Source of the DNA: Ectorhizobium quercum
GTDB lineage: Bacteria > Pseudomonadota > Alphaproteobacteria > Rhizobiales > Rhizobiaceae
Length of the DNA: 64,000 nucleotides
Reading direction: 5' to 3'
Assembly: GCF_026552795.1 (NCBI RefSeq)
Contig: NZ_JANFPI010000001.1
Location: 558,001-622,000 of the forward strand
Shown here: in pieces, positions 1,254 through 21,570 of the stretch
How the letters are laid out: each line of letters begins with the position of its first letter
How positions within the stretch are numbered: position 1 is the first letter of the stretch
Translations under genes and position numbers: made by a program
The notes under the pieces: model-generated
Seen by the model: the letters and a program-made list of their open reading frames with translations, nothing else
Told to the model about the DNA's origin: nothing
The model's database searches: none

Positions 1254-2195
1254 TTAGCCCTTGTCGAAACGGATCGGGACGGTGATCGTCTTGCTCGCTC
1301 CGGGCGGCGGAGCGGGGACCGGCGATGCCCGGCGCACGAGCGACAGCACCTCGTTGTCCAGTTCCGAGAAGCCGGAGGAGCGGACCAGCGACGCGGACAG
1401 GACATTGCCGGAATCGTCGATGCGGAAGCGGATATGCACGACGCCGCGTTCGCCGCGGGAGCGGGCGCCGCCGGGATATTTCTTGCGCCTTTCGATATGC
1501 GCCATCAGCCGGGATTTCCATCTCGCGGGCGAGGCCGAGGAAGAGAACAATCCGCCGGACGACGATTCCCGCGCGGCGTTGCGGTTCGACTGTTTCGCGC
1601 GTGCCTTTGATTCGACTGCCGCCTGCGATGCCGGTTGCGGACGCTTGCGGCGTTCCTCGACCTGCTTCTTCGGCTCTTCCTTCTTGACGATCTCCCGCGG
1701 CCTTTCGACCTTGGGCTTTTCCTCCGGCGGCCTGGGCCGGGCGACCGGAATCGGCACCTCGACATTTTCCAGCTCGGCGACCTGCTCCTCGACGGGCTCT
1801 ATTTCCTCCTCGACGATTTCTTCGACCGGTTCCGGCTCGGTTTCCTGCGGCTCGGCCTCGGCCACCTCCTCGACGGGTTCCGGCTCGGTTTCCACGATTT
1901 CTTCCGGCGGTTCCTCGACCGGGGTCTCCTGCTCCTCGACAGGCTGGCTTTCGGCCACCGTCTCCTGATCGGGCGAGACCTGGTCGTCCTCGGTGTTGAT
2001 CGCTTCCGGCTCCGCCGCCATCTCGATCATGATCGCGGCAGGCGCGTCGGCCTCGACCGGCTCGGCGGGGCGCTCGTATATCAGCCATGCGGCGGCGCCG
2101 ACATGAAGTGTAAGCGTGATCATGGCCGCGCTGGTCCACAACACGGTTTCGGCTGCGCGGACGCCCCGGCTCGTACCGTTGTGAAGCGTGTTCAT
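1254..2195 (-). CDS. tonB: TonB-family energy transducer
   Basis: The protein has 313 residues: one N-terminal membrane anchor (about residues 20-42, TVLWTSAAMITLTLHVGAAA), a long Glu/Pro/Val-rich periplasm-spanning region (about 45-175) and a C-terminal TonB domain (about 228-313, from WKSRLMAHIERRKKYPGGA). It would couple the proton-motive force, through ExbB/ExbD, to outer-membrane siderophore receptors. The start is well set by an AGGAGGT sequence just upstream of the ATG. No exbB or exbD lies nearby in the window. Its place beside a catecholate siderophore locus suggests iron uptake, but I saw no RirA-like box in its upstream region. Confidence 0.88.
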   Translation of the reverse strand: MNTLHNGTSRGVRAAETVLWTSAAMITLTLHVGAAAWLIYERPAEPVEADAPAAIMIEMAAEPEAINTEDDQVSPDQETVAESQPVEEQETPVEEPPEEIVETEPEPVEEVAEAEPQETEPEPVEEIVEEEIEPVEEQVAELENVEVPIPVARPRPPEEKPKVERPREIVKKEEPKKQVEERRKRPQPASQAAVESKARAKQSNRNAARESSSGGLFSSSASPARWKSRLMAHIERRKKYPGGARSRGERGVVHIRFRIDDSGNVLSASLVRSSGFSELDNEVLSLVRRASPVPAPPPGASKTITVPIRFDKG

Positions 2196-5171: not shown

Positions 5172-6011
5172 CTACCCGTTCCTGGCGAAGGCCGGCAGGA
5201 GGGGAAGGGTTGCCGGAAGCGTGGCGGCGTGTCCCAGTCCTTCGAGGACCCGGGAGGTGACGGAGATGTTGTTCCGCTGCGAAAGCCGCCGGATCATCTC
5301 CAGCGTGTGCGGGGCGGGGCCTTGCCAATGCGGGCCGGCCGGACTGGAGCGGCGTTCGCTGTCGCCGAGCGTGATGAGAACGTCATGAGGCTCGCCCGGA
5401 TCGCCGGTCTTCGCCTCGAGTTCCAGCATGATTTCATCGCCCCACCAGATCGACGGGCTGGCGGCCGCGATGTGGCGGAATGCGCCGGGGCGCTTCAGCA
5501 GCGTGTAGAGCGCGAACATGCCGGCCAGCGAATGGCCGAAGAGCATGCGGCGGGCGGGATCGACCGGCAGACCTGCTTCGACGCTTTCGCGGATCGGCCC
5601 GGTAAGCCGTTGCAGGAAGGCGCCGGCACCGCCGATCAGGCGGTCGGGCCGGTTCGGATCGGGATAGGGGTCCCCGGCATGGCGCGCTGGTGTGTAATCG
5701 CGCGAGCGGGCCGGCGGGTCGAAGCGAAGGTCCGTATCGTGCCCGATCCCGGCGAGGATCAGGCCGCTTGCGGCGGCGAGCTGCCCGGCATCCATGAGGT
5801 CGAAGGCGGCGTTGCCGTCGAGCAGGTAGAGGATCGGAAAGCCGCCGGCGGGCGGCGAGGATCGGGGAACGGCCAGAAACAGCCGGTGGGCGACGCCGTC
5901 GGCGGCGATTGTCCGGCGGGAAAGGCTGTGTGTCGGATGTTCGTTCCGGAACAGCGCCAGTTCGGCAACCGGCGGCGGAGGGCGTATGAGGGTGGACGGC
6001 GAATTCGTCAT
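5172..6011 (-). CDS. alpha/beta hydrolase of the siderophore esterase (IroE/Fes-like) type
   Basis: The 279-residue protein belongs to the PF00756 esterase group. It has the early FPILYLLDGNAAFDLM strand, the nucleophile elbow FGHSLAGMFALY (Ser in GHSLAG), ASPSIWWGDE, and a late GLGHAATLPATLPLL segment that could carry the catalytic His. Trilactone hydrolases of this kind (IroE, BesA, Fes) open enterobactin-type siderophores to release iron. It is divergent from the ferric-siderophore permease and near the ent operon, which fits iron release from the imported ferric catecholate. No signal peptide is visible, so cytoplasmic action is likely. Confidence 0.8.
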   Translation of the reverse strand: MTNSPSTLIRPPPPVAELALFRNEHPTHSLSRRTIAADGVAHRLFLAVPRSSPPAGGFPILYLLDGNAAFDLMDAGQLAAASGLILAGIGHDTDLRFDPPARSRDYTPARHAGDPYPDPNRPDRLIGGAGAFLQRLTGPIRESVEAGLPVDPARRMLFGHSLAGMFALYTLLKRPGAFRHIAAASPSIWWGDEIMLELEAKTGDPGEPHDVLITLGDSERRSSPAGPHWQGPAPHTLEMIRRLSQRNNISVTSRVLEGLGHAATLPATLPLLPAFARNG

Positions 6012-6120: not shown

Positions 6121-7197
6121 ATGCACTGGGCGGAATCAGTCTTGCCAGCCATCCGAGAGACTCCATCAGACGTCGAAGGCTACACGCGCATCGTCTATCG
6201 CCGGGTGGCGCTGGTGGTGCTGCTCGGCGTGGCGATGGCGGCGGCTTTCGTCGCCGACCTGGTGACGGGCCCCTCCAGCCTGTCGGCCGCCGAAGCGCTG
6301 CGCGGGCTTTTCGCACCGGACGGACTTTCCCCGTCCGCGCGGGTCATCATATGGGATGTGCGGCTTCCGCAGGCGCTGATGGCGGTGCTGGTGGGGGCAA
6401 CCCTGTCGCTGGCCGGTGCCGAAATGCAGACCATTCTCAACAATTCCCTCGCCAGCCCCTTCACGCTCGGGGTGTCGTCGGCCGCTTCGCTCGGCGCGGC
6501 GCTGGCCATCGTGCTCGGCGTCGGGGTTCCCGGCTTTGACAATGCGTGGCTCGTCTCGACCAATGCATTTCTCTTCGCCTTCGGCTCCGTCCTGCTGCTC
6601 CAGTCGCTCGCGGGCCTGCGCGGCACGGGCCCCGAAACGCTGGTGCTTTTCGGCATCGCTATGGTCTTCACCTTCAATGCGCTGGTGGCGCTGATCCAGT
6701 TCATCGCGAGCCAGGAGGCGCTGCAACAGCTCGTCTTCTGGAGCATGGGATCGCTGACGCGCGCCAACTGGGAGCGGCTGGGCGTGCTCGTCGTCGTGCT
6801 CGCCGTCGTTTCGCCGCTTGCCGTCATGGATTCGTGGAAGCTGACGGCGCTGAGGCTCGGCGAGGACCGCGCGCGTTCGTTCGGCATCGGCGTCGGGCGA
6901 CTGCGGTTCATGTCGCTGCTGCGGGTCAGCATCCTCGCCGCGACGGCGGTCGCCTTCGTCGGAACGATCGGCTTCATCGGCCTGGTCGGCCCGCATATCG
7001 CCCGGCTGCTTCTGGGGGAAGATCATCGTTTCCTTCTGCCGGGAAGCATGCTGACCGGCGCGCTGGTGATGTCCCTGTCGTCCGTGGCCAGCAAGGTTCT
7101 CGTGCCCGGCGCGGTGCTGCCGGTCGGCATCGTCACCGCCCTGATCGGCGTGCCGTTCTTCGTGGCGCTGATTTTTCTGAAGCGGGAACGGGTATGA
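6121..7197 (+). CDS. FecCD-type ferric-siderophore ABC transporter permease
   Basis: The 358-residue polytopic protein carries the FecCD/BtuC signatures: IWDVRLPQALMAVLVGATLSLAGAEMQTILNNSLASPFTLGVSSAASLGAALA near the N-terminus and TIGFIGLVGPHIARLLLGEDHRFLLPGSMLTGALVM, the ATPase-contacting region. About nine to ten membrane helices are expected. Only one permease gene is present, so it would act as a homodimer with the ATPase that overlaps it by 4 bp (ATGA). It imports ferric siderophore across the inner membrane. No strong ribosome-binding site precedes the chosen ATG. Confidence 0.92.
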   Translation: MHWAESVLPAIRETPSDVEGYTRIVYRRVALVVLLGVAMAAAFVADLVTGPSSLSAAEALRGLFAPDGLSPSARVIIWDVRLPQALMAVLVGATLSLAGAEMQTILNNSLASPFTLGVSSAASLGAALAIVLGVGVPGFDNAWLVSTNAFLFAFGSVLLLQSLAGLRGTGPETLVLFGIAMVFTFNALVALIQFIASQEALQQLVFWSMGSLTRANWERLGVLVVVLAVVSPLAVMDSWKLTALRLGEDRARSFGIGVGRLRFMSLLRVSILAATAVAFVGTIGFIGLVGPHIARLLLGEDHRFLLPGSMLTGALVMSLSSVASKVLVPGAVLPVGIVTALIGVPFFVALIFLKRERV

Positions 7198-7982
7198 GCG
7201 CGCCGGTCCATCGCCTGAGCGTTGCGGATTATTCGGTCGGCTATCCCGGCCGGCACGTCGTTTCCGGCCTGTCGCTGCCGCTCGTGCGCGGCGGTGCCCT
7301 GACGGCGCTGGTGGGGCCGAACGCGGCGGGCAAGACCACGCTCCTGCGCGGCCTGGCGGGCCTCATCCGCTCGCAGGGCTCCATAGAGGTCGACGGGCGC
7401 GAATTGCATGGCCTGTCGGCATCCGCCTATGCCCGGCACGTGACCTACATGCCGCAGGCCCTGCCGCAGCGCGTTGCGCTGAGCGTCTACGAGGCCGTCC
7501 TTTCGGCCCTGCATGCGACCCCGCCCGAGGGCACGAGCAAGGCCGACCTGCGCCGGCGGGCCTTCGAGACGCTGGAGCGCCTCGGGATCGGCGATCTGGC
7601 GCTTGCGCCGCTCGACCGTCTTTCCGGCGGCCAGCGCCAGCTTGCGAGCCTGGCGCAGGCGATCGCGCGCCAGCCGTCGGTCCTGTTGCTGGACGAGCCG
7701 ACCAGCGCGCTCGATCTCCGATACCAGCTCAAGGTCATGAGCGTCGTGCGCGACCTGGCGCGCGAGCGCGGCATGGTGACGATCTTCGTCCTCCACGATA
7801 TCGCGCTTGCCGCCCGCTGGTGCGAACGCGTCATCGTGCTGTCGAACGGCAGGGTGGCTGCGGACGGGACGCCGGCCGAGGCCATTACGCCGGCGATGTT
7901 CGCCGAGGTCTACGGCGTCGAGGCGCGTGTCGAGCGCTGCTCGCACGGCCATGTCCAGATCATGGTCGACGGCCTGCTCTGA
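7194..7982 (+). CDS. ferric-siderophore ABC transporter ATP-binding protein (FecE/FepC-like)
   Basis: The 262-residue ATPase has Walker A GPNAAGKTT, Q-loop around MPQALPQ, ABC signature LSGGQRQ, Walker B VLLLDEPTSALD and switch His in VLHDIALAARWCERVIVL. The family is the iron-chelate importer ATPase. Translation is coupled to the permease through the ATGA overlap. It ends 10 bp before the 3' end of the convergent b561-binding-protein fusion, so the transport components form one convergent locus. Confidence 0.92.
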   Translation: MSAPVHRLSVADYSVGYPGRHVVSGLSLPLVRGGALTALVGPNAAGKTTLLRGLAGLIRSQGSIEVDGRELHGLSASAYARHVTYMPQALPQRVALSVYEAVLSALHATPPEGTSKADLRRRAFETLERLGIGDLALAPLDRLSGGQRQLASLAQAIARQPSVLLLDEPTSALDLRYQLKVMSVVRDLARERGMVTIFVLHDIALAARWCERVIVLSNGRVAADGTPAEAITPAMFAEVYGVEARVERCSHGHVQIMVDGLL

Positions 7983-7992: not shown

Positions 7993-9552
7993 TCAGAGGT
8001 CCATCCAGTTGATGCCTTCGAGCGGAACGGCGAGGAACCGCGCGTTGATCTCGTGCAAGGTGCCGTCGAGGTCGATGCCGTCGAAGAGGTCGGGACGGAT
8101 CCATTTCGCCAGCGCTTCCATCGTCAGGACGTCGAGCGGGCTGTTGAGGAGTTGGTGGGCGATGCCATGCACATGGCCCTCGCGCACGGCCTTCAGGCTG
8201 GATATGCCATTTCGTCCGGCGACGCGCTCCAGCGTGTCGTGGACGCGCTGCCTGTCGTAGCCCGGGCCGATCAGCAGGCCGTTGGTGCCTTCCATGTGAG
8301 GGCCGCCGGTGGCGATATAGACGTCGGGATCGGCCTCGATCACGAATTCCAGGCTGAGGACGCCGGTCACGCCCTTGATGGCCGCGCTTCCGATGTTCTC
8401 GCCGCCGGCGAACTCGATGTAGTTGCCGATATTGCCCGTGCCGGGCGAGGCGCAGCACTCGTCGGTGCGCGCGGCATGCGGCTCCAGGAAGACACGGGGC
8501 CGCTCTCCGGTCGATGCGGCAAGTGCAGACGTGATCGCATGGGCGCGTTCGCTGCGAAAGGCGATGAAGTCCTCGGCCTGTTCCGTGCGGCCGGTCACTT
8601 GTCCGAGAAAACGCAGGCTCGGTTCGAGGTTTTGCAGGGGCTGGTTGAAGAAGTCGATGATGGCGACGGGAACGCCGCCTGCCTCGATCTGCCTGATCTG
8701 TTCTTCGGAGGGCTGCGAGGTGAGCGAGAAGATCGCAAGGTCCGGTTCGGCCGCGAGCACCTGTTCCACGGAAAGATTGCCGGCGGAACTGGCGATCTGG
8801 TGCAGCGTCTCGATGGCGGGGAATGTCTGGCGGTACTGCTCGTAGACGGCCGGGCCGATGCGGTTGATGTCGCGCGGCCAGGCCGACAGCAGGCTGACGG
8901 GATCGGGGGCGATCAGGGAGAGGGCAATGAGATATCGGCCGTCGTCGATGGCGATGCGCTGTGCCGGTTGCTCAAGCCTGACCTGACGGCCCAGAACGTC
9001 CGTGGCGATCACCTGGGCGTTCGCTTCGGGCGAACAGATCATCGCGCCGGTCAGGACGATGGTGGCGAGGCTCGACGGCAGCATGCGCGACAGCAACCCG
9101 TCGCGGCGAATGAACTGGTGCCAGAGCGCGGCGGCGGCATGCAGGACGATGATCGCGAAAATCACCCCGGTGAGTGTCACATGCAGATCGCGGGGCCAGC
9201 GGCCGAGCGTCTTGCCGAAGGCGGTGATCGTCAGAAGGCCGAGGATCGGCTGGATCAGGATGGCCAGATACAGAAGCCCGTGGGTGGCGCGCGCGGCGAT
9301 GACCGTCGGCCGGTTCATGCCTGCCGGCAGCGGCGGGGCCGGATGCGTCAGCCGCCAGCCGATGCGGAAGACGGCCAGTGCCAGAACGGTGCTGCCCAGC
9401 ACGATATGCGCCCGGAAGAGATACATGCGCGGCGGCGAGCCGCGTTCGAAAATGCCCCAGATCCAGCCAGTCGCAAAAAGGGCGATGATCAGTATGGCCA
9501 TCGTCCAGTGAAGCCAGATCGAGACCCGATCGTAAGTGTGCCTTTCCTGCAT
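7993..9552 (-). CDS. fusion of cytochrome b561 domain with ferric-siderophore periplasmic-binding domain
   Basis: One open frame of 519 residues joins two modules. Residues about 8-150 form a four-helix cytochrome b561 domain with candidate haem ligands H15 (IWLHWTMA), H49 (LFRAHIVLG), H91 (ATHGLLY), H138 and H145. Residues about 157-181 (MLPSSLATIVLTGAMICSPEANA) look like an internal Sec signal peptide. The rest is a PF01497-type iron-siderophore binding domain (QVIATDVLGRQVRLEQPAQRI, DPDVYIATGG). It would place the capture domain in the periplasm, tethered to a membrane haem protein that might reduce ferric iron. The start was moved 16 codons inward from the longest frame because AAAAGGAA precedes this ATG. 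A RirA-like box lies about 65 bp upstream. Confidence 0.85.
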   Translation of the reverse strand: MQERHTYDRVSIWLHWTMAILIIALFATGWIWGIFERGSPPRMYLFRAHIVLGSTVLALAVFRIGWRLTHPAPPLPAGMNRPTVIAARATHGLLYLAILIQPILGLLTITAFGKTLGRWPRDLHVTLTGVIFAIIVLHAAAALWHQFIRRDGLLSRMLPSSLATIVLTGAMICSPEANAQVIATDVLGRQVRLEQPAQRIAIDDGRYLIALSLIAPDPVSLLSAWPRDINRIGPAVYEQYRQTFPAIETLHQIASSAGNLSVEQVLAAEPDLAIFSLTSQPSEEQIRQIEAGGVPVAIIDFFNQPLQNLEPSLRFLGQVTGRTEQAEDFIAFRSERAHAITSALAASTGERPRVFLEPHAARTDECCASPGTGNIGNYIEFAGGENIGSAAIKGVTGVLSLEFVIEADPDVYIATGGPHMEGTNGLLIGPGYDRQRVHDTLERVAGRNGISSLKAVREGHVHGIAHQLLNSPLDVLTMEALAKWIRPDLFDGIDLDGTLHEINARFLAVPLEGINWMDL

Positions 9553-9618
9553 CGCTATTCCTTTTCGTCGACGCCGTGGCCATGCCATTTCGTCGTGCAA
9601 GATTACAGAATTTTAAGT

Positions 9619-9633
9619 TGACAGGATTGATCA
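9619..9633. promoter_or_regulatory. RirA-type iron-responsive (IRO) box between the b561 fusion and entC
   Basis: TTGACAGGATTGATCA contains TGA-N9-TCA and shares TTGACA with the box at 3492. It lies in the 223-bp divergent region, close to the b561 fusion start and about 145 bp before entC. A TAAAAT -10-like hexamer for the minus strand is adjacent. It could repress both directions when iron is replete. Confidence 0.62.
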
Positions 9634-9775
9634 TCTTTTTATTCCTGCCTATATGGTGGCCGCCGGCGTTTATGCCGCGCCTTGAGAGCAATCGTCAATC
9701 TATCCCATGCGAATGCTTTGGGAAAGTAAATAATTCAGGGGGTTTTGCGGCAAATTTAGTCGCATTTACTTTGCT

Positions 9776-10921
9776 ATGGAAAGTTTTTATCTCAAATCAG
9801 ACGATTTGTGCTTGAGGGCAGAAGGTATAAATCGGCGGCTGACAAGAGGTAATGCGTCCTCTTTGGCGGCCCGGGCGAATGCTTTCTTCAGCGAATTTCA
9901 GGACGGGGTGCGGTTGCTGGCCGGTGTGCTTCCGTTCGACCGCGAAGCCGACGATTATCTTTTCCAGCCGGCCGGCTTGGAACGGGTTGCCGGGCCGCAG
10001 GCGGCGCCGGATCGCGCGGCTTTCGCCGGCGACGGCAAGTGGATCGTCTCGCAGGAGCCGCCCGCCGCCGACTACGCCGCGGCGGTCGAAAGGGTTCTCG
10101 AGGAGATCGGGCGCGGCGGCGGCGAACATCCGCTGCAAAAAGTGGTTCTGTCGCGCAGCCTGAATATCCGGGCCTCCGCCCCGGTCGATCCGGGCGCCCT
10201 GCTGCGCCGTCTTTCCTCCGATGCCAGCACCGTGACGTTCTCCGCATCGCTGCCGTCGCGCGAGGGAATGCCGTCGCGCTTGATCGGCGCCACCCCGGAA
10301 CTGCTCGTTTCGCGGCAGGGGGAAACCATCGTCTCCCACCCGCTGGCGGGCTCGGCCCGGCGCCGTGCGGACCCGGCCGCCGACCGGCAATCCGCCGAAG
10401 CGCTCGAACGATCCGACAAGGACCGGCGCGAGCATCGCGCTGCGGCGGAGGCCGTGTTCGATGCGCTGGCGCCCTATTGCAGCGCGCTTTCCGCGCCGGA
10501 TGGCACGGCATTGCGCGCCACGGCCACCATGTGGCATCTGGGAACGCGCATCGTCGGCCGGCTCAGGGACCGGGACACGCCGGTGGCCGAACTTGTCGCG
10601 GCGCTTCATCCGACCCCGGCGGTCTGCGGCCTGCCGCGCGACCGGGCCGCGGCGCTGATCCGGGAGGTCGAGGGATACGATCGCGACTTCTATGCCGGCG
10701 CCGTCGGCTGGATGGACGATCGCGGCGATGGCGAATGGTATGTCGCTTTGCGTTGCGCACAGCTCTCCGGTTCGCATATACGGCTCTATGCGGGTGCCGG
10801 TATCGTGGCCGGATCGGACCCGCTGGCGGAGGTGGACGAGACCTCGGCCAAGTTTCTGGCCATGCTGAATGCGCTGGGCGTCGACGAGCAGGGGCGCCCG
10901 CTGGGGGAGAAGGCAGCGTGA
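9776..10921 (+). CDS. entC: isochorismate synthase
   Basis: The 381-residue chorismate-binding enzyme converts chorismate to isochorismate, the first step of 2,3-dihydroxybenzoate synthesis. Visible family blocks are [14 protein letters not shown], the central [27 protein letters not shown] and the C-terminal [19 protein letters not shown]. It is the first gene of a six-gene operon and overlaps entE by 4 bp (GTGA). The start is uncertain: no ribosome-binding site precedes the ATG, and the in-frame stop is 14 codons further up. Length is close to E. coli EntC (391). It is probably iron-regulated through the box at 9619. Confidence 0.93.
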
Positions 10922-12546
10922 TTCCAGTTCATCAGGATTTTCCGGTCGAGTTCGCCGAGCGCTATCGCGCGGCCGGATACTGGCGGGGCGAAACCTTTCC
11001 GGCCTTCATCCGCGAACGCGCGGCTGCGTTTCCTGACCGGGTGGCCGTCATCGGCGGGGAGCAGCGCTGGACCTATGGCGAGTTGCTCGGCCGGGCGGAA
11101 GCCGCCGCTGCCGGTTTTCTCGCCCTCGGCCTCAAGCCGGGCGACCGTGTCGTCGTGCAGATCCCCAACATTCCCGAATTCCTGTCGGCGGTCTTCGGCC
11201 TGTTCATCGCAAGGCTGATCCCGGTCTATGCCCTGCCGGCGCACCGGCTGACCGAGATCGTGCATTTCGCCCGGAAGTCCGATGCTTGCGCCTATGTGAT
11301 CGCCGCCGGCCATGACGGCTTCGACTATCGGGCGCTGGCGCGTGAGGTCGTCGCCGAGGTGCCGGACATCCGCCATGTGGTCGTGATCGGCGATGCGCAG
11401 GAGTTCACGCCTTTCGCCTCCTTTGCGGCCGACCCGTCGCTGGAGTTTGCGCTGCCGTCTCCCTCCGAGGTGGCGTTCCTGCAAATCTCGGGCGGCAGCA
11501 CGGGCCTGTCGAAGCTCATTCCGCGCACCCACGACGATTATATCTACAGTTTCCGCGCCAGCGCGGACATCTGCGGGCTCGACGAGACCAGCGTCTATCT
11601 CTGCGCGCTGCCTGCGGCGCATAACTTCCCGATGAGTTCGCCCGGCTATTTCGGCGCGCTTTATGCCGGCGGGCGCGTCGTCCTGTCGCCGTCGCCATCG
11701 GCCGAGGCCTCCTTCGCGCTGATCGAGCGGGAAGGGGTGACGATCACCGGTCTGGTGCCACCGCTGGCGCTGCTCTGGCTTCAGGCGGCGGCGCGGACGA
11801 AACACGATCTTTCCAGTCTTCAGGTGTTGCAGGTGGGCGGGGCGAAATTCATGCCGGAATCCGCCAAACGTGTGCGCCCGGTGCTGGGCTGCACCTTGCA
11901 GCAGGTGTTCGGCATGGCCGAGGGGCTGGTGAATTACACCCGCCTCGACGATCCCGAGGACGTCATCGTGGAGACGCAGGGGCGCCCGATCAGCCCGGAC
12001 GACGAGGTGCTGATTCTCGACGATGCCGGCAATCCCGTTCCGGAAGGCGAGCCGGGCAACCTCCTGGTGCGCGGTCCCTACACGATCCGCGCCTATCACA
12101 ACGATCCGGGCGCCAATGCCCGCTCCTTCACCGCGGACGGCTTTTACCGCACCGGCGATGTGGTGAAGCGCACGCCCGAGGGCAATCTGGTCGTGCAGGG
12201 CCGCGCGACCGACCATATCAATCGCGCCGGCGAGAAGATCTCGGCGGAAGAGATCGAGGATCATCTCCTCGCCCATCCCGATGTGTTCGATGCGGCGGTC
12301 GTGTCCGTTCCCGACGAATTTCTCGGCGAGCGAAGCTGCGCGTTCATCATCGCCCAGGGCGAGCCGCCGAAAGCGTCCGCTATTAAGGCGTTCATGCGCA
12401 CCCGCAACCTCGCGGACTTCAAGGTGCCGGACCAGATCGTCTTCGTGAGCGCGTTCCAGACGACCGCCGTCGGCAAGATCAGCCGCAAGGAACTGCGCGC
12501 GGCGCTGCGCGAGAAATTCCTCGAAGGCCAGCGCGGAAAGGCGTGA
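10918..12546 (+). CDS. entE: 2,3-dihydroxybenzoate-AMP ligase
   Basis: This stand-alone adenylation enzyme of 542 residues begins with GTG overlapping the entC stop. It activates 2,3-dihydroxybenzoate and loads it on the aryl carrier protein. Motifs are the P-loop [14 protein letters not shown], the DHB-binding region [65 protein letters not shown] and the C-terminal catalytic lysine in [12 protein letters not shown]. These match EntE/DhbE/VibE closely in order and length. Confidence 0.94.
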
Positions 12547-12550
12547 GACG

Positions 12551-13186
12551 ATGGGACTGCCGAAGATCGCATCCTACGAACTGCCGCGCGCCGACGAGCT
12601 TCCCGCGCCGCGCGGGCCGTGGAAAGTCGAGACGGACCGTGCGGCACTGCTGATCCACGACATGCAGAACTATTTCGTCGGCGCCTACGCGTCCGATACC
12701 GCGCCCATCGCGCCGGCCACGGCGAATATCGCCGCGCTGGCCGCCCATTGCCGTGCCCGGGGCATCCCGGTGTTCTACACGGCCCAGAACGGTGATCAGG
12801 ACCGGCGTGATCGCGGGCTCCAGGCGGACCTGTGGGGTCCGGGCATGGGCTCGGCCCCGGAGCATCAGTCGATCGTGCCGGCCCTGACGCCTCAACCCGG
12901 CGATATCGTGCTGGTCAAGCACCGCTACAGCGCCTTCCAGCGTAGCAATCTGGAAACGCTGATGCGCGCCCGCAAGCGCGATCAGCTTCTGGTGACGGGC
13001 ATCTACGCGCATATCGGCTGCCTGATGACGGCCGCCGAAGCCTTCCAGCGCGACATCGAGACGTTCTTCATCGCGGATGCGCTCGCCGATTTCAGCCGGG
13101 CCGAACACGACATGGCGGTCAAATGGGTCGCGGGACGTTGCGGCGTGCCCATGACCACGGTAGAAGCCGTTGCGGCGCTGGCCTGA
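12551..13186 (+). CDS. entB: isochorismatase without fused carrier domain
   Basis: The 211-residue enzyme hydrolyses isochorismate to 2,3-dihydro-2,3-dihydroxybenzoate and pyruvate. Visible are AALLIHDMQNYFVGAY (catalytic Asp), FYTAQNGDQDRRDRGLQADLWGPG, VLVKHRYSAFQRSNLE and TGIYAHIGCLMTAAEAF. Unlike E. coli EntB (about 285 residues), it stops before the aryl carrier domain, which is encoded by the next gene in another frame. It follows entE by 4 bp. Confidence 0.92.
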   Translation: MGLPKIASYELPRADELPAPRGPWKVETDRAALLIHDMQNYFVGAYASDTAPIAPATANIAALAAHCRARGIPVFYTAQNGDQDRRDRGLQADLWGPGMGSAPEHQSIVPALTPQPGDIVLVKHRYSAFQRSNLETLMRARKRDQLLVTGIYAHIGCLMTAAEAFQRDIETFFIADALADFSRAEHDMAVKWVAGRCGVPMTTVEAVAALA

Positions 13187-13198: not shown

Positions 13199-13471
13199 AT
13201 GACCATAACACTCGAACGGATGCGCGCGGACATCGCAGCGCTGGTCCATCTGGAGCCCGAGGAAATCGGCCTGGACGACAATCTCATGGATCTCGGCCTC
13301 GATTCCATGCGGCTTCTCAACCTCATCATGATGTGGGAGCAGGCCGGCGTGGATCTCGATTTCGGCACTTTCGCCGAACGCTTCACGCTTGCGGCCTGGT
13401 GGGAGGCCGTCGAGGCGCGCCAGGGCGGCCAGGGTGACGCCGATGCGGAAGCCGCCGATGGCGTTCGGTAA
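13199..13471 (+). CDS. stand-alone aryl carrier protein
   Basis: The 90-residue acidic protein has a single phosphopantetheine-binding domain. The attachment serine is in LMDLGLDSMRLLNLIMMWEQ. It corresponds to the C-terminal domain of bifunctional EntB and would carry the 2,3-dihydroxybenzoyl group from EntE to the EntF condensation domain. A GGAGAGGG ribosome-binding site precedes the ATG, 12 bp after entB. Its end overlaps the start of entF. No 4'-phosphopantetheinyl transferase (EntD) is in the window, so it must be modified by an enzyme encoded elsewhere. Confidence 0.88.
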   Translation: MTITLERMRADIAALVHLEPEEIGLDDNLMDLGLDSMRLLNLIMMWEQAGVDLDFGTFAERFTLAAWWEAVEARQGGQGDADAEAADGVR

Positions 13472-16400
13472 GGAAATCGAAGCCGGCACGGCGGACGATA
13501 CGGGCGCCGGCCTGACCGAAGCGCAGTCCGGCCTGTGGTACTTCCAGCGCATCGAGCCGGAAAACCCGATCCTGAACACCGGGCAGTACATCGAAATGCG
13601 CGGAAGCCTCGATGTCGCGGCGTTCCGCACGGCCGTCGACCGGATGGTCGCGGAGGCGGATGCGCTGGCGCTGCGTTTCACGGAGACGGGCAACGAGGTT
13701 CGGCAGGTGGTCGACGAGGACCATCGTCCCTGGCTGGAGGTGGCAGACCTTACCGGCGAGGCCGATCCCGAGGCGGCGGCGCTTGCCGACATGCGCCGCG
13801 ACACCGCCACGCCGCTCGACCCGGAAAAGGACAGGCTGGTGCTGTTCCGGCTCTACATCCTCTCCGGCAATCGCGCCTTCTGGTACGAGCGGGCGCATCA
13901 CCTCGTCATCGACGGCTACGGCTGGGTGCTCGTCACCAACCGCGTAGGCGAGATCTATTCGGCGCTGGTGAACGGTGTCGAGCCGGGTCCGGCGCTGCGT
14001 CCGCTCACGCTGGCCGTCGAGGACGACGCGACCTACCGCGCTTCCGAAAAACGCGAAACCGACCGTGCCTGGTGGCTGGAGACGATGTCCGGCATGCCGG
14101 AGGTCGCGAGCCTTGCATCCGGGCGTGCCGTCTCGGCCCAGGATTTCATCCGCCATACGATCCGCCTCGACGCCGGACGCCTCCGGCCGCTGACGGCGCT
14201 GGCCGAACGGGCGAGCGTGACGTGGCCGGATGCGCTCACCGCCCTCGTCGCCGCCTATTGCCAGCGTTTCGCCGGCGCGGCGGAAACCGTCGTCGGCGTG
14301 CCGCATATGGGCCGTCTGGGCAGCCCGACGGCGCGCGTGCCCTGCATGTGGATGAACGTCCTGCCGCTGCGGGTCCGGCCCGATGAGGATATTCCCATCG
14401 GGGAATGGCTCGCCGGCGTGTCGAAGGATCTGGTCAAGGCGCGGCGGCACGGGCGCTATCGCAGCGAGCAGTTGCGCCGCGATCTCGGCCTGATCGGCGG
14501 CCACCGCCGGCTGTTCGGGCCGATGGTCAACGTCCAGCCCTTCGACGTTCCACCGAAGATGGCTGGTCTTGATGTGACGCTGCACATTCTCGGCGCCGGC
14601 GCGGTCGATGACATCACCTTCACCTTCCGGGGCGACCCGAAGGATGCGACGATCTTCGAGGTCGACGCCAATCCCGGCCTTTATTCCCGCGCGGATGCGG
14701 CGGCGCATGCGCAGCGGCTGCTGGCCTTTCTCGACCGTGCCTCGGAGGCTGCGGCCCTCGCCGAAGTGCCGACGGCAAGCCCGGATGAGGCGCGGCGCTT
14801 CCTCTTCGATCTCAATGCGACGGACCATGCGGTGCCCGACACCACGCTCGTCGCGCTGATCGAGGAAACCTTCCGCGCAACGCCCGGTGCGACGGCGCTC
14901 GTCTTCGAGGGCCACACGCTCACCTATGCAGACCTCGACCGGCGTTCCGCAGCACTCGCTGCACAGCTTGCATCGATGGGCGCGGGACGCGAGACCATCG
15001 TCGCAGTCGCCCTGCCGCGCTCGCTGGAACTGGTCGTGGCGCTGGTCGCGATCCTGCGCGCCGGCGCGGCTTACCTGCCGCTTGACCTCGACCATCCCGA
15101 CGAACGCATAGCCCGCATTCTCGCCTCCGCCGGGCCCGTCGCCGTGCTGGCCCTTGACGCAGATGCCGGGCGGTTCGGGGAAAAGGTGCTGGCCGTTTCG
15201 CGCTGGGCGCCGGAGGGACAGGCGGCGCCGAGCCCGGCCCGGCCCGGCGACGCGGCCCGGCCGGACGACATGGCCTATGTCATCTACACGTCCGGCTCGA
15301 CCGGCGAGCCGAAGGGCGTGGTGATCGAGCATCGCGCCATCGTCAACCGTCTCGTCTGGATGCGCGACCATTACGGCGTCGACGCTACGGATCGCATCCT
15401 GCAAAAGACGCCCGCCACCTTCGACGTGTCGGTCTGGGAGTTCTTCCTGCCGCTGATCGCGGGCGCGACCCTCATCGTTGCGCCGCCCGGCGCGCATCGC
15501 GATCCGGCGGCGATTGCGGCATTGATCCGCGACGAAAGGATCACGACGCTGCATTTCGTGCCGTCCATGCTGTCGGCCTTCCTCGCCTCTCCGGCCAGCC
15601 GGGGGCTCGTCGTGAAGCGCGTCTTCTGCTCCGGCGAGGAACTGACGGCCGACCAGTGCGAGCGTTTCCACCGGACGCTGTCCGCCGAGCTGCACAATCT
15701 CTACGGCCCGACCGAAGCCGCCGTCGATGTCAGTTCCTGGCCTGCGACCCGCGACGACCGCTCGCTTCCCGTGCCCATCGGCTTTCCGGTCTGGAACACG
15801 CGGCTCTACGTGCTCGACGAACGCCTGCGGCCCTTGCCGGCGGGTGTCGCGGGCCACCTCTATCTCGGCGGTGTACAGCTTGCGCGCGGCTATCTCGGCC
15901 GGCCCGATCTCACGGCAGAACGCTTCCTGCCCGATCCCTTCCGCCCCGGCGAGCGCATCTACAAGACCGGCGATCTCGCCCGCTTCCGCGAGGACGGCGC
16001 GGTCGTCTTCCTCGGCCGCTCCGACCATCAGGTGAAGATCCGCGGATTGCGCATCGAACTCGGCGAGATCGAGGCGGCGATCATGGCTTCCGGCCTGGTG
16101 CGCGAGGCGGGCGTTGTCGCCCGCGAGGATCGGCCCGGCGACAGGCGCATCGTTGCCTATCTCGTTCCCGGCGACGGCTTCGGGGAGGCGGCGTTGCGCG
16201 CCCATCTCACCCGCACGCTGCCGGATTACATGATGCCCTCGGCCTTCGTCGAATTGCCCGCCCTGCCGGTCACGGCCAACGGCAAGCTCAACCGTGCCGC
16301 CCTGCCGGCGCCCGCCTTCCGGCACGAGGGTGCAAGCCGCCCGGCCACACCGACCGAAGCGGCGGTCGGGGCACTCTTCGCAAAAATTCTCGGCCTGCCC

Positions 16401-17387
16401 GAACCGGCGGGGCCGGAGGCCGATTTCTTCGCGCTCGGCGGCGATTCGCTCTCCGGCGTCCATCTCGTTCTTGCCTTCGCCGAACGCTTCGGTTTCGATC
16501 CCGGCCTCGGCGCGCTGTTCGAGCGGCCCACGGTCGCGGCCCTTGCCGCGCTGGTGGATTCAGGCGTCGTGGGGCCGGACGAGGGGCTCGGGCCGCTGAT
16601 CCGCCTCGCGGAAGGCAAGGCCGGCAATCCGCCGCTCTTCCTTGTCCATCCGGCGGGCGGTATCGCCTGGGGCTATCGAACGCTGGCGCGGGCGCTGGCT
16701 GCCGGCCGGCCGGTCTACGGTCTTCAGTCGCCCGCGCTCGATCCGGCGGCACCCATGCCGGAAAGCCTCGCGGTGCTGGCCTCCGGCTATGTTGAGCGCA
16801 TCCGCGCCGTGCAGCCGCAAGGCCCCTATCACATCGGCGGCTGGTCCCTCGGCGGCATCATCGCGCAGGAAATGGCGGCGCAGCTTCAGGCCGCCGGCGC
16901 GCAGGTCGGCGTCGTCGCCCTGCTCGATTCCTATCCGGCCGATTGCTGGCGCGCCGAGCCCGAGCCGAGCGAGGTGGATGCGCTGCGGGCGCTCATCGTC
17001 ATCGCCGGTCACGATCCGGAAAAACATCCCGATCTCGTGACCCGCGAGGCGATTTTCGATTTCCTGCGGCAAGGCGACAGCCCGCTCGGAAACCTGCCGG
17101 CCAGCGCGCTCGAAGGCGTGGTGCGCGTCGTTCCCGACACCAACCGCCTCGTGCGCGGGCATTTCCATTCGCACTATGGCGGAGTGCTGACACATGTGCT
17201 GGCCGCCCTCGATCACGAGGGCACCGATCTCAGGCCGGAACTGTGGCTCGCCTATGCGGACGGGGTGGACGTGATCCCGGTGCCGTTCCTGCACCCGCAG
17301 CTCACCTCCGCCAGGGCGGTGGAACTGATCGCGCCGCATCTGGCGGAGCGGTTGCGGTCGTTTGACAGAACAGAGGATGAAACATGA
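13443..17387 (+). CDS. entF: EntF-like non-ribosomal peptide synthetase (C-A-PCP-TE)
   Basis: The single-module synthetase has about 1314 residues. In order: condensation domain with HHLVIDG (about 151-157); adenylation domain with YTSGSTGEPKG (about 613-625), FDVSVWEFF, HFVPSML, VFCSGE, NLYGPTEAAVDV (about 751) and VTANGKLNR; carrier domain with GGDSL (Ser near 1001); and thioesterase with GWSLGG (Ser near 1134) and LLDSYP. Visible specificity positions read D-V-W-H-F-S-L-V-D, as in the serine-activating E. coli EntF. The thioesterase suggests trimerisation and cyclisation, as in enterobactin. ATG 13443 was chosen for an AGGGTGA upstream; ATG 13458 is also possible. It overlaps both neighbours. 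No MbtH-like gene is visible. Confidence 0.93.
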   Translation: MRKPPMAFGKEIEAGTADDTGAGLTEAQSGLWYFQRIEPENPILNTGQYIEMRGSLDVAAFRTAVDRMVAEADALALRFTETGNEVRQVVDEDHRPWLEVADLTGEADPEAAALADMRRDTATPLDPEKDRLVLFRLYILSGNRAFWYERAHHLVIDGYGWVLVTNRVGEIYSALVNGVEPGPALRPLTLAVEDDATYRASEKRETDRAWWLETMSGMPEVASLASGRAVSAQDFIRHTIRLDAGRLRPLTALAERASVTWPDALTALVAAYCQRFAGAAETVVGVPHMGRLGSPTARVPCMWMNVLPLRVRPDEDIPIGEWLAGVSKDLVKARRHGRYRSEQLRRDLGLIGGHRRLFGPMVNVQPFDVPPKMAGLDVTLHILGAGAVDDITFTFRGDPKDATIFEVDANPGLYSRADAAAHAQRLLAFLDRASEAAALAEVPTASPDEARRFLFDLNATDHAVPDTTLVALIEETFRATPGATALVFEGHTLTYADLDRRSAALAAQLASMGAGRETIVAVALPRSLELVVALVAILRAGAAYLPLDLDHPDERIARILASAGPVAVLALDADAGRFGEKVLAVSRWAPEGQAAPSPARPGDAARPDDMAYVIYTSGSTGEPKGVVIEHRAIVNRLVWMRDHYGVDATDRILQKTPATFDVSVWEFFLPLIAGATLIVAPPGAHRDPAAIAALIRDERITTLHFVPSMLSAFLASPASRGLVVKRVFCSGEELTADQCERFHRTLSAELHNLYGPTEAAVDVSSWPATRDDRSLPVPIGFPVWNTRLYVLDERLRPLPAGVAGHLYLGGVQLARGYLGRPDLTAERFLPDPFRPGERIYKTGDLARFREDGAVVFLGRSDHQVKIRGLRIELGEIEAAIMASGLVREAGVVAREDRPGDRRIVAYLVPGDGFGEAALRAHLTRTLPDYMMPSAFVELPALPVTANGKLNRAALPAPAFRHEGASRPATPTEAAVGALFAKILGLPEPAGPEADFFALGGDSLSGVHLVLAFAERFGFDPGLGALFERPTVAALAALVDSGVVGPDEGLGPLIRLAEGKAGNPPLFLVHPAGGIAWGYRTLARALAAGRPVYGLQSPALDPAAPMPESLAVLASGYVERIRAVQPQGPYHIGGWSLGGIIAQEMAAQLQAAGAQVGVVALLDSYPADCWRAEPEPSEVDALRALIVIAGHDPEKHPDLVTREAIFDFLRQGDSPLGNLPASALEGVVRVVPDTNRLVRGHFHSHYGGVLTHVLAALDHEGTDLRPELWLAYADGVDVIPVPFLHPQLTSARAVELIAPHLAERLRSFDRTEDET

Positions 17388-18148
17388 TGCGCGACACGGG
17401 TCTTGCAGGCAAAATCGCACTGGTGACGGGAGCCGGCGGAGGCATCGGTGCCGCGGTTGTCCGGCAGTTACTGGAGGAAGGCGCCCGCGTTGTCGCGATC
17501 GACCTTGAAGCGCCCGGTCTCGTTGCTAAGGACAATCTGCGCGCGGAGGCGCTGGACGTGCGCGACAGCGCCGCCGTCGAGGCGCTGGTCGGGCAGGTCG
17601 AGCGGGAATGGGGACCGATCGACCTCGGCGCCAATGTCGCCGGCATTCTGGCGACGGGGCTGATTGCCGAAACCGACGATGCCACATGGCGCAACGTCTT
17701 CGCCGTGAACACCGACGGCGTGTTCCACGTCTCCCGGGCGCTCGCCCGCCGCATGACGCCGCGCCGGCGCGGATCGATCGTCACCGTCAGTTCCAACGCT
17801 GCCGGCATCCCGCGCCACGCGATGGCGGCCTATGCGGCGTCGAAGGCGGCGACGACGATGTTTACCCGCTGCCTCGGGCTGGAACTCGCGCCGCACGGCA
17901 TACGCTGTAACATCGTCGCGCCCGGATCGACGCTGACGCCGATGCAGACCGGCATGTGGGCCGACGACCAGGGTGCGGCGCGTGTCATCGCGGGCTCGCT
18001 GGAAACCTACAAGGCCGGCATTCCGCTTGGAAAGCTCGCCACGCCGGAAGACGTCGCCGACGCCGTGGTGTTCCTGCTCTCGGACCGGGCCGGCCACATC
18101 ACCATGAGCGATCTTTATGTCGATGGCGGCGCCACCCAGCGCGCCTGA
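17384..18148 (+). CDS. entA: 2,3-dihydro-2,3-dihydroxybenzoate dehydrogenase
   Basis: The 254-residue short-chain dehydrogenase has the NAD-binding TGAGGGIG near residue 15, NVAGI, the catalytic Ser in TVSSNAAG and YAASK. The segment VAPGSTLTPMQTGMW is typical of EntA/DhbA rather than generic SDRs. It oxidises the isochorismatase product to 2,3-dihydroxybenzoate. It is the last gene of the ent operon, coupled to entF by ATGA, and converges with the GGDEF-EAL gene after only 13 bp with no visible terminator. Confidence 0.93.
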   Translation: MMRDTGLAGKIALVTGAGGGIGAAVVRQLLEEGARVVAIDLEAPGLVAKDNLRAEALDVRDSAAVEALVGQVEREWGPIDLGANVAGILATGLIAETDDATWRNVFAVNTDGVFHVSRALARRMTPRRRGSIVTVSSNAAGIPRHAMAAYAASKAATTMFTRCLGLELAPHGIRCNIVAPGSTLTPMQTGMWADDQGAARVIAGSLETYKAGIPLGKLATPEDVADAVVFLLSDRAGHITMSDLYVDGGATQRA

Positions 18149-18161: not shown

Positions 18162-20540
18162 TCAATCGCGGTGACGGGCCGACCACTCCATCGGTAGGCG
18201 GCGGGGCAGACGGCCGGCGCCGCCCGAAGCTTCCGCAGCATCCGCCCTGCCGGCGAGCAGGTCCTCCAGCGGGACGGCCGCACCGACGCCGTGTCCCTCG
18301 AACAGATCGCATCCCGCCAGGGCCAGCAGGGTCTGGGTGAGCTTGTCGCGAACCCCCTGCGCCACGACCACGCAGCCGCGCGAGTGGCACAGATCGATGA
18401 TGGCGTTCAATGTGAGCGTGTCGCGGCCGTCATGGATCTTCCCGACCAGATCGCGGTCCAGCTTCACCGTATCGAGCGGATATTCCAGGATCTGCTTCAA
18501 TGACGTGAAGCCGGCGCCGAAATCGTCCAGCGCTATCCGGAAGCCGGCGTCCTTCAGGCCCTGCACGACGGCCTTCACCTTCTCCGGCGCCCCGATGGAG
18601 AAGGTTTCGGTCAGTTCCAGTTCGATCGACGATGCCGGAACGCCGTTTTGCCCGATGGCCTGGAGGGCATGGTCGATGATGGCGCTCGACCGCAGTTCGG
18701 CTGTCGAGATGTTGATGCCAAGCAGGAGGCCGTCGCCGAACACCTGCTGCAATTGCCTGAGATCGCCGGTTGCCTTTTGCAGGACCCACCTGTCGATCTT
18801 GGAAAACAGGGCATTCGTTTCGGCCAGCGGGATGAATTCGCGCGGCGACACCTCGCCCAGTACAGGCGAGGTCCACCGCAAAAGCGCTTCGCACCGGGTG
18901 ATGACGCCGCTTCTCGACACGATGGGCATGTAGACGAGGGAAAATTCCTCGTCCGGATCAAGCCGTTGCAACTCCGCCCTGATCTGCTGGATGCGCCGGT
19001 CGCCGTCGGCGAAGGCGGAGGAATACCGGGTGATGCGGTTCTTGCCTGACGCCTTGGCGTGATACATGGCCTTGTCGGCGGAGGAGACGAGCTGTGTCAG
19101 CGATCGGGCGTCCGCCGGAAAGCTGGCGATGCCGATGCTGGCGCTGACCGGATAGGTCTCGCTTCCCACGGCAAGCCCGTCGCGGAACAGATCGACGATG
19201 CGCGCGGCGATCTCCGCCGCCCTGTCCGCCGTCCCGGTGTCCTGAAGCAGGATCGCGAACTCGTCCCCCGACAGGCGCGCGAGCCCCGGTGCCTCCGCCG
19301 GGCCTTCCTGACGGCTGGCGGCAAGGATTTCGCGGGCCAGCAACGTGAACCGTTGCAGCACCGCGTCGCCGGCGGCATGGCCGAAGGTGTCGTTGACGAA
19401 CTTGAAGTTGTCGAGGTCGATGAACAGCAGGCTCAGGCACTCCCGCGCGGCGCGGGCGTCCTCGATCATGCCCTTGCCGACGAGCGTGAAGCGGGAGCGG
19501 TTGCTGATACCGGTCAGGCTGTCGGTCCACGAGGCGGTCTGTACCTTGTCGAGCGTGTCGAGCGCCTGATCGTGCAACGTCTTGATATTGGTGGTCAGGC
19601 GCTCTATCTCGCCGCGGCCCGTCATGCGGTCGAGATGCAGGCGGCGGCCCGACAGGATGTCCGTGACCTGACTGTCGAGCACCGCAATCGGTTTGGTGAC
19701 GATGCGCCGGATCAGGAACAGGAGCAGACCCACGGAGCCGAAGCTCAGCAGCAGGCATGCGATCGCCAGGGTGGCTTTCAGTGATTGCAGGCGCGCGGCG
19801 AGATAGGCATCCGTGAGCGGCAGACCCAGCTTCAGATTTGCCAGGACGCTGCTCACCGCCATGAATTGCCCGCCATCTCCGGTGATTTCCGGCGCGATGA
19901 CCAGTGCCGTACCGTATTCCTTCTCCAGCTTGTCCTTCATTCTCAGGAAGTCGCGGGGCCGGACGGCGGCCTGGACGATGAAGGCCTCGTCCCTCTGGGT
20001 TGCGAAGGCATTCGAGAAAGTGGTCCGGTCGAGGAGGGCGGTGTGGATGATCAGCGGCCCGCCCTCGTCCTGGACGAATTCGTCCGACGAGGTCGCGACC
20101 CCGCTCAGCCGCCGCGTTGCCGTTTCGATCTGCACGGAAGGGATCGAGGCGAACGGGTCGTCGCTCTTTTCAAAGTAGTAGGCGACGGACAGATCGTTCT
20201 GGAGGATGGCGAAGGAGACGAAGCGGCTCGAGTTGCTGGAGAAGAACTCGATGCCTTCCTGCACCCTGACACCGAGCGCCGTGGTCCTGAAGCTTTCGTC
20301 GGCCTCGCGCATGAAGGCGCGCACGGCATCGCCCGTCTGCATCATGAAGACCAGATTGCGGGCGAAATCCAGATCCTGATCGAACAGCGATTGCAGCCGC
20401 TCCATCTGCCTGGAGAGACGGGCGGTTTCGCCCCTCTCGATGCTGTCGCGTTCCAGCCAGTAGACGGATACGGCAATGAGGATGTTGCTCAGCAGGACCA
20501 CCGGCAGGATGATCGCGGAGGCCCGCCTACCGAGCGTCAT
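18162..20540 (-). CDS. membrane GGDEF-EAL protein (MbaA-like), EAL domain with altered catalytic residues
   Basis: The protein has 792 residues: a membrane helix (about 9-27), a periplasmic sensor domain (about 30-250), a second helix (about 254-280), a HAMP-like linker (280-325), GGDEF (about 335-500, motif SGDEF at 424-428, no RxxD inhibitory site) and EAL (about 530-765). EALLRW (551-556), N610, E645, DDFG (672-675) and K693 are kept, but the usual AEGV reads AQGV (Q728) and the later QGY/F signature reads EGH (E748). Phosphodiesterase activity is therefore doubtful, whereas cyclase activity is possible. It overlaps the PotD-like gene upstream by 14 bp, like mbaA after nspS in Vibrio cholerae. 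Confidence 0.9.
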   Translation of the reverse strand: MTLGRRASAIILPVVLLSNILIAVSVYWLERDSIERGETARLSRQMERLQSLFDQDLDFARNLVFMMQTGDAVRAFMREADESFRTTALGVRVQEGIEFFSSNSSRFVSFAILQNDLSVAYYFEKSDDPFASIPSVQIETATRRLSGVATSSDEFVQDEGGPLIIHTALLDRTTFSNAFATQRDEAFIVQAAVRPRDFLRMKDKLEKEYGTALVIAPEITGDGGQFMAVSSVLANLKLGLPLTDAYLAARLQSLKATLAIACLLLSFGSVGLLLFLIRRIVTKPIAVLDSQVTDILSGRRLHLDRMTGRGEIERLTTNIKTLHDQALDTLDKVQTASWTDSLTGISNRSRFTLVGKGMIEDARAARECLSLLFIDLDNFKFVNDTFGHAAGDAVLQRFTLLAREILAASRQEGPAEAPGLARLSGDEFAILLQDTGTADRAAEIAARIVDLFRDGLAVGSETYPVSASIGIASFPADARSLTQLVSSADKAMYHAKASGKNRITRYSSAFADGDRRIQQIRAELQRLDPDEEFSLVYMPIVSRSGVITRCEALLRWTSPVLGEVSPREFIPLAETNALFSKIDRWVLQKATGDLRQLQQVFGDGLLLGINISTAELRSSAIIDHALQAIGQNGVPASSIELELTETFSIGAPEKVKAVVQGLKDAGFRIALDDFGAGFTSLKQILEYPLDTVKLDRDLVGKIHDGRDTLTLNAIIDLCHSRGCVVVAQGVRDKLTQTLLALAGCDLFEGHGVGAAVPLEDLLAGRADAAEASGGAGRLPRRLPMEWSARHRD

Positions 20541-21570
20541 GAAGGCCCGTGACCGCGCTGACGATGCGCTTGCGCAACTGGATGATCGGTGCCGAATACT
20601 CGTAGTAGAACTGGCTGGCCGCGACGATCTCCTCCGGCGGGAATATCTCGGGATTGTTTTTCATCTCGTCCGGGAGAAGGGGAATGGCCGTTTGGTTGGC
20701 GGTCGGCATCGAAAGATCGATGGCGTTCCGGACGGCGATGTCGGGCCGGTTGATGAAATCGAGGAACTGGACCGCGAGATCGCGGCGCGGCGATTTCGCA
20801 TTGGCCGCCAGACAGTCCACCCAGATCACGCTTCCCTCCTGCGGCAGCACGTATTTCCACGGCTTGCCGGATATCTCGCTCAGCGTGAACTGGTCGCCGC
20901 TATAGGCAAGCGCCATGTGGAGCTGGTCGCCGATGGCCGCGTCCTGCGAGGACGTCATGATGTAGTCGTAGGTGCGGACGGATGGTGCCTGCGCCTTGAG
21001 CATCTCGAAGGCTTCCTTCAGTTCGTCCTCGTTCTCCGAACTGACGGATTTGCCCGCCAGAATGAGCGGCGGAGAAAGAAGATCGTCATAGCCCGTCACC
21101 ATCGCCAGATGGCCGGACAGGTCCGCGGAAGGTTCGAGCAGGTCGTTCCACGACGTCGGCGCCGTCTCGATCTTGTCGGAGCGGTAGACGATCCCGAGCG
21201 TTCCCCAGAAATAGGGTAGACCGTACCCCACGCATCGCTCGCGCCATCGCGCAACCGAGTGCCTCGCAGACGGCACCGTCTCGTCCGACACCTCGACCAG
21301 CATGCCGTTGCGAGAATAGAGGCCGGTGATGTTCTCGTTGAGGATCGCAAGGTCGATATTGCTGTTGGGGTCGGCAAGCAGACGGTCGCGGTCGTCGCCG
21401 TTGTCGTAGTAAATCTGCCGGATCTGGACGCCGGTTTCTTCCGTCCACGTCTCCAGGACTTTTTCGGAAATGTATTGTTCCCAGATCAGAAGATTGAGTG
21501 TTTCTGCCCTCGCAATTGCGGGAAATACAGATGCGGCGAGCAATGTGCCTGCAAAAAATATTTTTTCCAT
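20527..21570 (-). CDS. PotD/NspS-like periplasmic polyamine-binding protein
   Basis: The 347-residue exported protein has a signal peptide MEKIFFAGTLLAASVFPAIARA followed by ETLNLLIWEQYISEKVLETW, the classic start of spermidine/putrescine-binding PotD/PotF proteins. GLPYFWGTLGIVYRSDKI and WVDCLAANAKSPRRDLAVQFLDFINRP also match. No transport permease or ATPase is linked. Instead it precedes and overlaps a GGDEF-EAL gene, so it is probably a ligand sensor like V. cholerae NspS rather than a transport component. The start at 21570 follows AAAGGGGGA; the longer frame adds ten non-signal residues. Confidence 0.86.
   Translation of the reverse strand: MEKIFFAGTLLAASVFPAIARAETLNLLIWEQYISEKVLETWTEETGVQIRQIYYDNGDDRDRLLADPNSNIDLAILNENITGLYSRNGMLVEVSDETVPSARHSVARWRERCVGYGLPYFWGTLGIVYRSDKIETAPTSWNDLLEPSADLSGHLAMVTGYDDLLSPPLILAGKSVSSENEDELKEAFEMLKAQAPSVRTYDYIMTSSQDAAIGDQLHMALAYSGDQFTLSEISGKPWKYVLPQEGSVIWVDCLAANAKSPRRDLAVQFLDFINRPDIAVRNAIDLSMPTANQTAIPLLPDEMKNNPEIFPPEEIVAASQFYYEYSAPIIQLRKRIVSAVTGLHDAR

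Follow-up and report, generated by a model that had tools for sequence, protein, structure and literature searches.

A fusion of cytochrome b561 to a siderophore-binding protein, probably a cleaved polyprotein, in a catecholate siderophore cluster of Ectorhizobium quercum

The FbcH protein of Bradyrhizobium is a cytochrome b/c1 polyprotein that is cut by signal peptidase. Among the cytochromes b561, lcoA and bcnA are fused in most alphaproteobacteria, with the b561 first and the lipocalin second, and are linked but separate genes outside the alphaproteobacteria; in the fusions a linker replaces the signal peptide and the products are thought to stay tethered (PMC9113575, excerpted text). The same excerpts attribute superoxide oxidase activity to E. 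coli CybB (PMC9113575). In a different family, FsrB, FoxB (COG3182) and HiuB (PepSY) are proposed to reduce ferric siderophores at the periplasmic side of the inner membrane. Among the open-literature titles listed as matches none described a fusion of b561 to a siderophore-binding protein, which does not prove that there is none.

The gene analysed here lies in a stretch of 64,000 nucleotides of Ectorhizobium quercum DNA (contig NZ_JANFPI010000001.1, positions 558,001 to 622,000), hereafter the window. Its parts are as follows:

7993..9552, minus strand: fused reading frame, 519 amino acids, ATG at 9552 and TGA at 7995-7993
9076..9534, minus strand: cytochrome b561 domain (PF01292), residues 7-159, from Pfam, the structure model and alignment
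9016..9084, minus strand: junction, residues 157-179, b561 tail passing into the hydrophobic core LATIVLTGAMIC and the A-N-A predicted cut site, from sequence comparison
9082..9084, minus strand: internal ATG (Met157), a possible but weak alternative start, from sequence and ribosome pairing
7996..9015, minus strand: binding domain past the predicted cut, residues 180-519 (PF01497; solved relatives 6b2x, 9ht5 and 9hrj)

The frame is open over all of its 519 codons, with the closest in-frame stops at 9615 and 7995, and its product matches PF01292 (cytochrome b561) at residues 7-159 (E 6.8e-28; 98.1 bits against a cut-off of 30.1) and PF01497 (Peripla_BP_2) at residues 256-463 (E 3.3e-14; 53.3 bits, over the curated cut-off). 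An earlier note on this DNA had described a single uninterrupted frame with a b561 domain and, after a hydrophobic segment, a PF01497 siderophore-binding domain, and both observations hold. No other domain was matched in the fused protein by Pfam at E 0.001; at that threshold neither the PepSY domain of FoxB/HiuB-type siderophore reductases nor the YceI domain (PF04264) of the LcoA-BcnA chimera was found. The window protein nevertheless resembles LcoA-BcnA in having an N-terminal b561 and a C-terminal periplasmic ligand-binding domain in one polypeptide in the same class of bacteria, and in that the halves are separate neighbouring genes in other bacteria; the C-terminal domain is YceI in the one and PF01497 in the other. 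We found b561-YceI frames at five of six candidate loci (L108-L111 and L113), with both domains confirmed by Pfam in all five and a fifth hydrophobic segment in each linker (in L112 there was no b561-YceI match in frames of at least 250 codons). Since such chimeras are both published (PMC9113575, as excerpted) and confirmed here, the design is not without precedent, as the earlier note had supposed, and the window protein has a known layout in which the partner domain is new, as seen in one genome; LcoA-BcnA, on the other hand, is described as common in its class in those excerpts (PMC9113575).

In the b561 half, helices are predicted at residues 9-34, 40-69, 81-109 and 119-148, and the ten-residue blocks across residues 11-150 have pLDDT values of 79-96. 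Six histidines (15, 49, 91, 124, 138 and 145) are at least 90% conserved in an alignment with 13 b561 rows (A2); these are the five named earlier plus H124, which is as conserved as they are. The nearest solved relative by sequence is CybB (5oc0), which has no extra domain; the match consists of two stretches within the four-helix core. The profile match, the four helices in the confident part of the model and the conserved histidines make this a prokaryotic cytochrome b561 with a predicted haem site. Among the b561 loops, the one that joins helices 2 and 3 is richest in basic residues (four K/R, none acidic), in agreement with a cytoplasmic N-terminus, but the two loops expected outside hold two and three K/R, so the charge count lends this orientation modest support; residues 145-160, just before the linker, contain three K/R and one D/E. 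With the N-terminus inside, the four helices would leave the tail HQFIRRDGLLSR inside as well, and the binding domain would reach the outer side of the membrane by way of a fifth segment, the predicted layout being the one proposed earlier.

Structure prediction, which had been suggested as a check, gave the four b561 helices with confidence but not the linker or most of the binding domain. The model has a mean pLDDT of 63, was built from 14 alignment rows of which three span the second half, and is good for the b561 only; 23 of the 34 ten-residue blocks of the binding domain are below 60. The match to YiuA (6b2x) covers nearly the whole binding domain (E 2.8e-69), and 9ht5 and 9hrj are further solved proteins of this type. 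The top-scoring NCBIfam model, NF010649 (PRK14048, ferrichrome/ferrioxamine B binding), reaches 263.8 bits against an equivalog cut-off of 374, so that the protein falls outside PRK14048 as NCBIfam defines it. The profile and solved-member matches identify a predicted siderophore-binding protein (PF01497, YiuA-like, cluster A-2). In YiuA the site is described as a basic triad of Arg64, Arg165 and Arg223, with His331 and Tyr334 as further residues (PMC5683015, excerpted text). Read by hand off the alignment, two of these five putative site residues are kept in the window protein (Arg64 as R206, His331 as H466) and three are changed (Arg165 to F302, Arg223 to H359 and Tyr334 to L469), so the ligand may differ from that of YiuA. 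All five window residues are common to Aminobacter sp. J41 (G255), and Pseudaminobacter arsenicus CB3 (G261) shares four (V at 469). To judge from the gene neighbourhood, the ligand is probably the cluster's own catecholate.

That neighbourhood is a 2,3-dihydroxybenzoate (catecholate) siderophore cluster:

5172..6011, minus strand: PF00756 esterase (Pfam), closing the block and kept in the cluster of five relatives
6121..7197, plus strand: FecCD-type permease
7194..7982, plus strand: ABC transporter ATPase, convergent with the fusion
9776..10921, plus strand: isochorismate synthase (entC/dhbC), divergent neighbour of the fusion, over the subfamily cut-off
10912..12546, plus strand: 2,3-dihydroxybenzoate adenylating enzyme (entE-like), start approximate, just under its cut-off (712.2 against 723.55 bits)
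12551..13186, plus strand: isochorismatase-domain protein (entB-like)
13199..13471, plus strand: carrier protein (PP-binding)
13434..17387, plus strand: peptide synthetase with condensation, adenylation, carrier and thioesterase domains (entF-like), start approximate
17384..18148, plus strand: 2,3-dihydro-2,3-dihydroxybenzoate dehydrogenase (entA/dhbA), over the equivalog cut-off

The 2,3-dihydroxybenzoate synthesis genes adjoin the fusion, which is the linkage to ent genes that had been proposed as a check. A role for the PF00756 esterase as a siderophore hydrolase is only inferred.

We searched 61 relatives, the genus (3 genomes), a family sample (394), four other genera (8, 4, 4 and 1 genomes), and order (397) and class (385) samples, a running total of 1258 genomes with repeats included; a scan of genome contigs gave 25 loci. 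For the family, order and class samples three candidates per genome were taken at cut-offs of 1e-20, 1e-40 and 1e-60 and only the matches listed were considered, so that in these three samples a b561 half that is distant, or a fusion that is remote, may have escaped. The plasmid collection gave 532 matching records, and in no record did a single place cover 80% of the query. Among the matches listed, a b561 lies directly upstream of the binding protein in seven genomes: the window's, J41, CB3, G242, G349, G010 and G1036. The first alone is fused; the other six have a stop at the end of the b561 and, for the binding protein, a separate start and a hydrophobic leader. The halves are 67-76% identical to the window's in J41, CB3, G242, G349 and G010. 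G1036 is a relative only at the level of the class (64% and 50% identity for the two halves), and its cluster is rearranged, yet the pair is together. The cluster genes are common to all six, with the same block order in five. What sets these split pairs apart from the window is that a stop and a new start divide them into two genes. In the split G1036 binding protein (L123, about 10430-10560) the leader shows, by eye, an RRR ahead of its hydrophobic part and might be a twin-arginine signal.

With one of seven neighbouring pairs fused, there is no support for the fusion as a conserved module, and the finding that the earlier note had named as telling against its reading, homologues always in separate genes, is nearly reached, the window being the exception. 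The pair itself is patchy. It occurs in 2 of 8, 1 of 4, 1 of 4 and 1 of 1 genomes in the relatives' genera; the two other genomes of the window's genus gave no close match (G002 has a 28% binding protein); and among the 61 relatives (E 0.001, all candidates) the halves are adjacent in the window and G010 only. Twenty of 90 locus records with a binding-protein match, from 7 genomes, have a b561 on the same strand 58-154 nt upstream, one (L056, from G025) has it on the opposite strand at a distance of about 7 kb, and the remaining 69 lack it. Without redundancy these are 66 loci, 7 with adjacent pairs and 59 without b561 directly upstream, most of the latter covered for about 1.5 kb upstream (L017 for 0.36 kb). 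In the ent clusters of Ciceribacter thiooxidans (L085), G387 (L052) and G417 (L053) the binding-protein gene lies ahead of entC, and no match to b561 turned up near it. A b561 of Ancylobacter mangrovi (L062, 7989-8477) is 64% identical to the window's, but the next gene is unrelated, has a secretion-like leader and does not belong to a siderophore pathway; in the 16.7 kb of L062 no gene of the siderophore cluster was found save a weak short-chain dehydrogenase match.

Candidates for further fusions were rejected. G242, in which both halves had matched the same 597-aa open frame, has a TGA between them; L062, matched across the junction, has the b561 alone and then the unrelated gene; and Ciceribacter, matched from residue 117, has the binding protein alone. 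Long open frames around other binding proteins (ten loci, 383-856 aa) held no b561 in their last 160 upstream residues, examined by eye.

Relative to J41, CB3, G242, G349 and G010, the window lacks the b561 stop, the spacer, the start codon and the basic n-region, and retains a 12-residue hydrophobic core and A-N-A, so that the b561 tail runs directly into the old signal-peptide core. Counted from the methionine of the conserved RMxP, at the end of the b561, up to where the mature binding protein is predicted to begin, the distance is 69 nt in the window and 114, 115, 122, 131 and 162 nt in the five; in the alignment the gap against J41, whose two genes share a frame, is 15 residues. These comparisons show an apparent loss of stop, spacer, start and n-region, and a joining of tail to core, in the window lineage. 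The signal is closed by A-N-A in the window and by A-R-A, A-F-A, A-R-A, A-A-A and A-R-A in the five relatives, but A-x-A is not diagnostic, as the b561-YceI linker of G024 has A-E-A past its hydrophobic stretch. The last residue of A-N-A is 179, which places the predicted cut after Ala179 and not, as first proposed, after Ala181; the signal-peptide-like segment ending in ANA was otherwise correctly described, and the hydrophobic core and A-N-A ahead of the second domain support the suggestion that signal peptidase might make two proteins of it. An internal signal core with A-x-A before a second domain is what a signal-peptidase-cleaved polyprotein should have, and the fusion is predicted to be one.

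The 19-residue Kyte-Doolittle mean of the linker is 1.43, the least hydrophobic of 11 segments compared, against 1.94-2.30 for five free signal peptides and 2.02-2.71 for the five b561-YceI linkers; these means are crude, and core and A-x-A were judged by eye and hydropathy. The structure model is weak here (blocks of 51 and 28, and a short helix at 160-171 of low confidence). The low value suits a cleavable peptide better than a lasting helix, and together with A-N-A it would favour cleavage. It could also indicate poor export, and a signal core that is the weakest of 11 might belong to a failing fusion, its binding protein misrouted and its locus decaying. We regard this as the least probable of the explanations weighed here, since both halves look constrained (pN/pS of 0.29-0.42 against the five relatives, compared with 0.16-0.57 among those relatives) and the genes around them are uninterrupted and match their families. 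As the halves match real families, seem constrained and keep their gene order in six other genomes, the arrangement exceeds chance, though the opening of the junction was a single event in a single genome and might be accidental. An assembly or sequencing artefact would also explain a fusion in one genome, and the contamination listed for that genome is 8.85%; however, compared with each of the five relatives the junction is shorter by 45 nt or more; it is in frame and retains core and cut site, which is not the work of a one-base slip, and it lies on a contig of 1,053,881 bases, so we find an artefact very improbable.

The b561 tree has poor resolution. The binding-protein tree, which is midpoint-rooted and does not settle the window's exact sister, groups the window with five of the split relatives in a clade of six (98/98) and leaves the split G1036 outside. 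Since the six other pairs are all split, fusion is most simply taken as the derived state, from an event seen once. The best explanation, and in our judgement a reasonably probable one, is a lineage-specific fusion whose product is cut into the same two proteins; that is, the gene probably encodes a young polyprotein, exported by an old signal peptide and cleaved into the two proteins of its relatives. The ancestor would have had two neighbouring co-directional genes in a catecholate cluster, for a four-helix b561 and a binding protein, the latter with its own start and signal peptide as in the six relatives. In the present product the b561 would insert with both ends cytoplasmic, its basic tail would act as n-region, and Sec would thread the residual core as a fifth segment, taking the binding domain to the periplasm. 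Signal peptidase I would then cut after Ala179, and the soluble binding protein so released would deliver ferric catecholate to the FecCD-ATPase importer encoded next to it. The b561 would stay behind in the membrane and serve as an accessory electron carrier; a single gene would thereby continue to yield its relatives' two proteins. This recalls FbcH, in which a membrane cytochrome, an internal signal peptide and a periplasmic domain likewise end as two proteins, although FbcH belongs to a respiratory complex and its C-terminal domain is unrelated. The interpretation in the earlier note is as a whole partly supported.

Alternatively, the binding protein might also, or solely, be made from an internal ATG at Met157 (or Met171). 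Met157 stands just ahead of the hydrophobic core, and nested starts occur in operons, but predicted anti-Shine-Dalgarno pairing at the two internal starts is weak (-3.2 and -1.7 kcal/mol), where the chosen starts of the five relatives reach -4.3 to -8.2 and the b561 start of the window -5.8; the average for the 16 ATGs inside the gene is -2.76. The contrast is not clear-cut, as the free start of G1036 has -2.6 and an alternative J41 start -1.7. A peptide begun at Met157 would also have no basic residue ahead of the core; predicted ribosome pairing makes an internal start the less likely route, and we think it quite improbable.

In the reading of the earlier note the fusion would remain uncut, its fifth segment anchoring the binding domain to the b561 so that electrons pass to the captured ferric siderophore. 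The b561-binding protein neighbourhood is kept in seven genomes, even in the rearranged cluster of G1036; the b561-YceI chimeras are described as tethered (PMC9113575, excerpts); and FsrB reduces ferric siderophores periplasmically in Bradyrhizobium. The weak linker with its A-N-A and the single fusion among seven pairs argue against it, as do the ordinary importer and esterase within the cluster, the 59 of 66 distinct loci that do without a b561 directly upstream (those of Ciceribacter, G387 and G417 included), the Ancylobacter b561 outside such a cluster and the lack of a PepSY match at E 0.001. We therefore hold an uncut product to be unlikely, and the full version, in which the whole protein would be a tethered siderophore-binding domain above a haem electron carrier with reductive iron release on the spot, to be decidedly unlikely; if true, it would make the b561-binding protein pair of catecholate clusters a capture-and-reduce unit. 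The b561-less loci, the Ancylobacter b561, the import route, the esterase and the missing PepSY also tell against the b561 as a specific ferric-siderophore reductase, and by analogy with CybB superoxide scavenging around catechols is as open a role for it. Pairing in seven genomes, once in a rearranged cluster, still suggests that the two proteins work jointly, and the fusion is a natural hint of such cooperation in catecholate clusters, in a single gene where internal signal-peptide cleavage and tethering can be distinguished.

In the spacer between the fusion and entC (window 9600-9660) a block (TAAGTTGAC, about 15 bases, TTTnTAT) is invariant in 6 aligned genomes and by eye resembles a sigma-70-like promoter directed towards entC. 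A TonB-type protein gene (PF03544) lies at window 1254-2195, a few kilobases from the cluster, and two solute-binding proteins of other families are encoded downstream of it, at 20527-21600 and 23713-24588.
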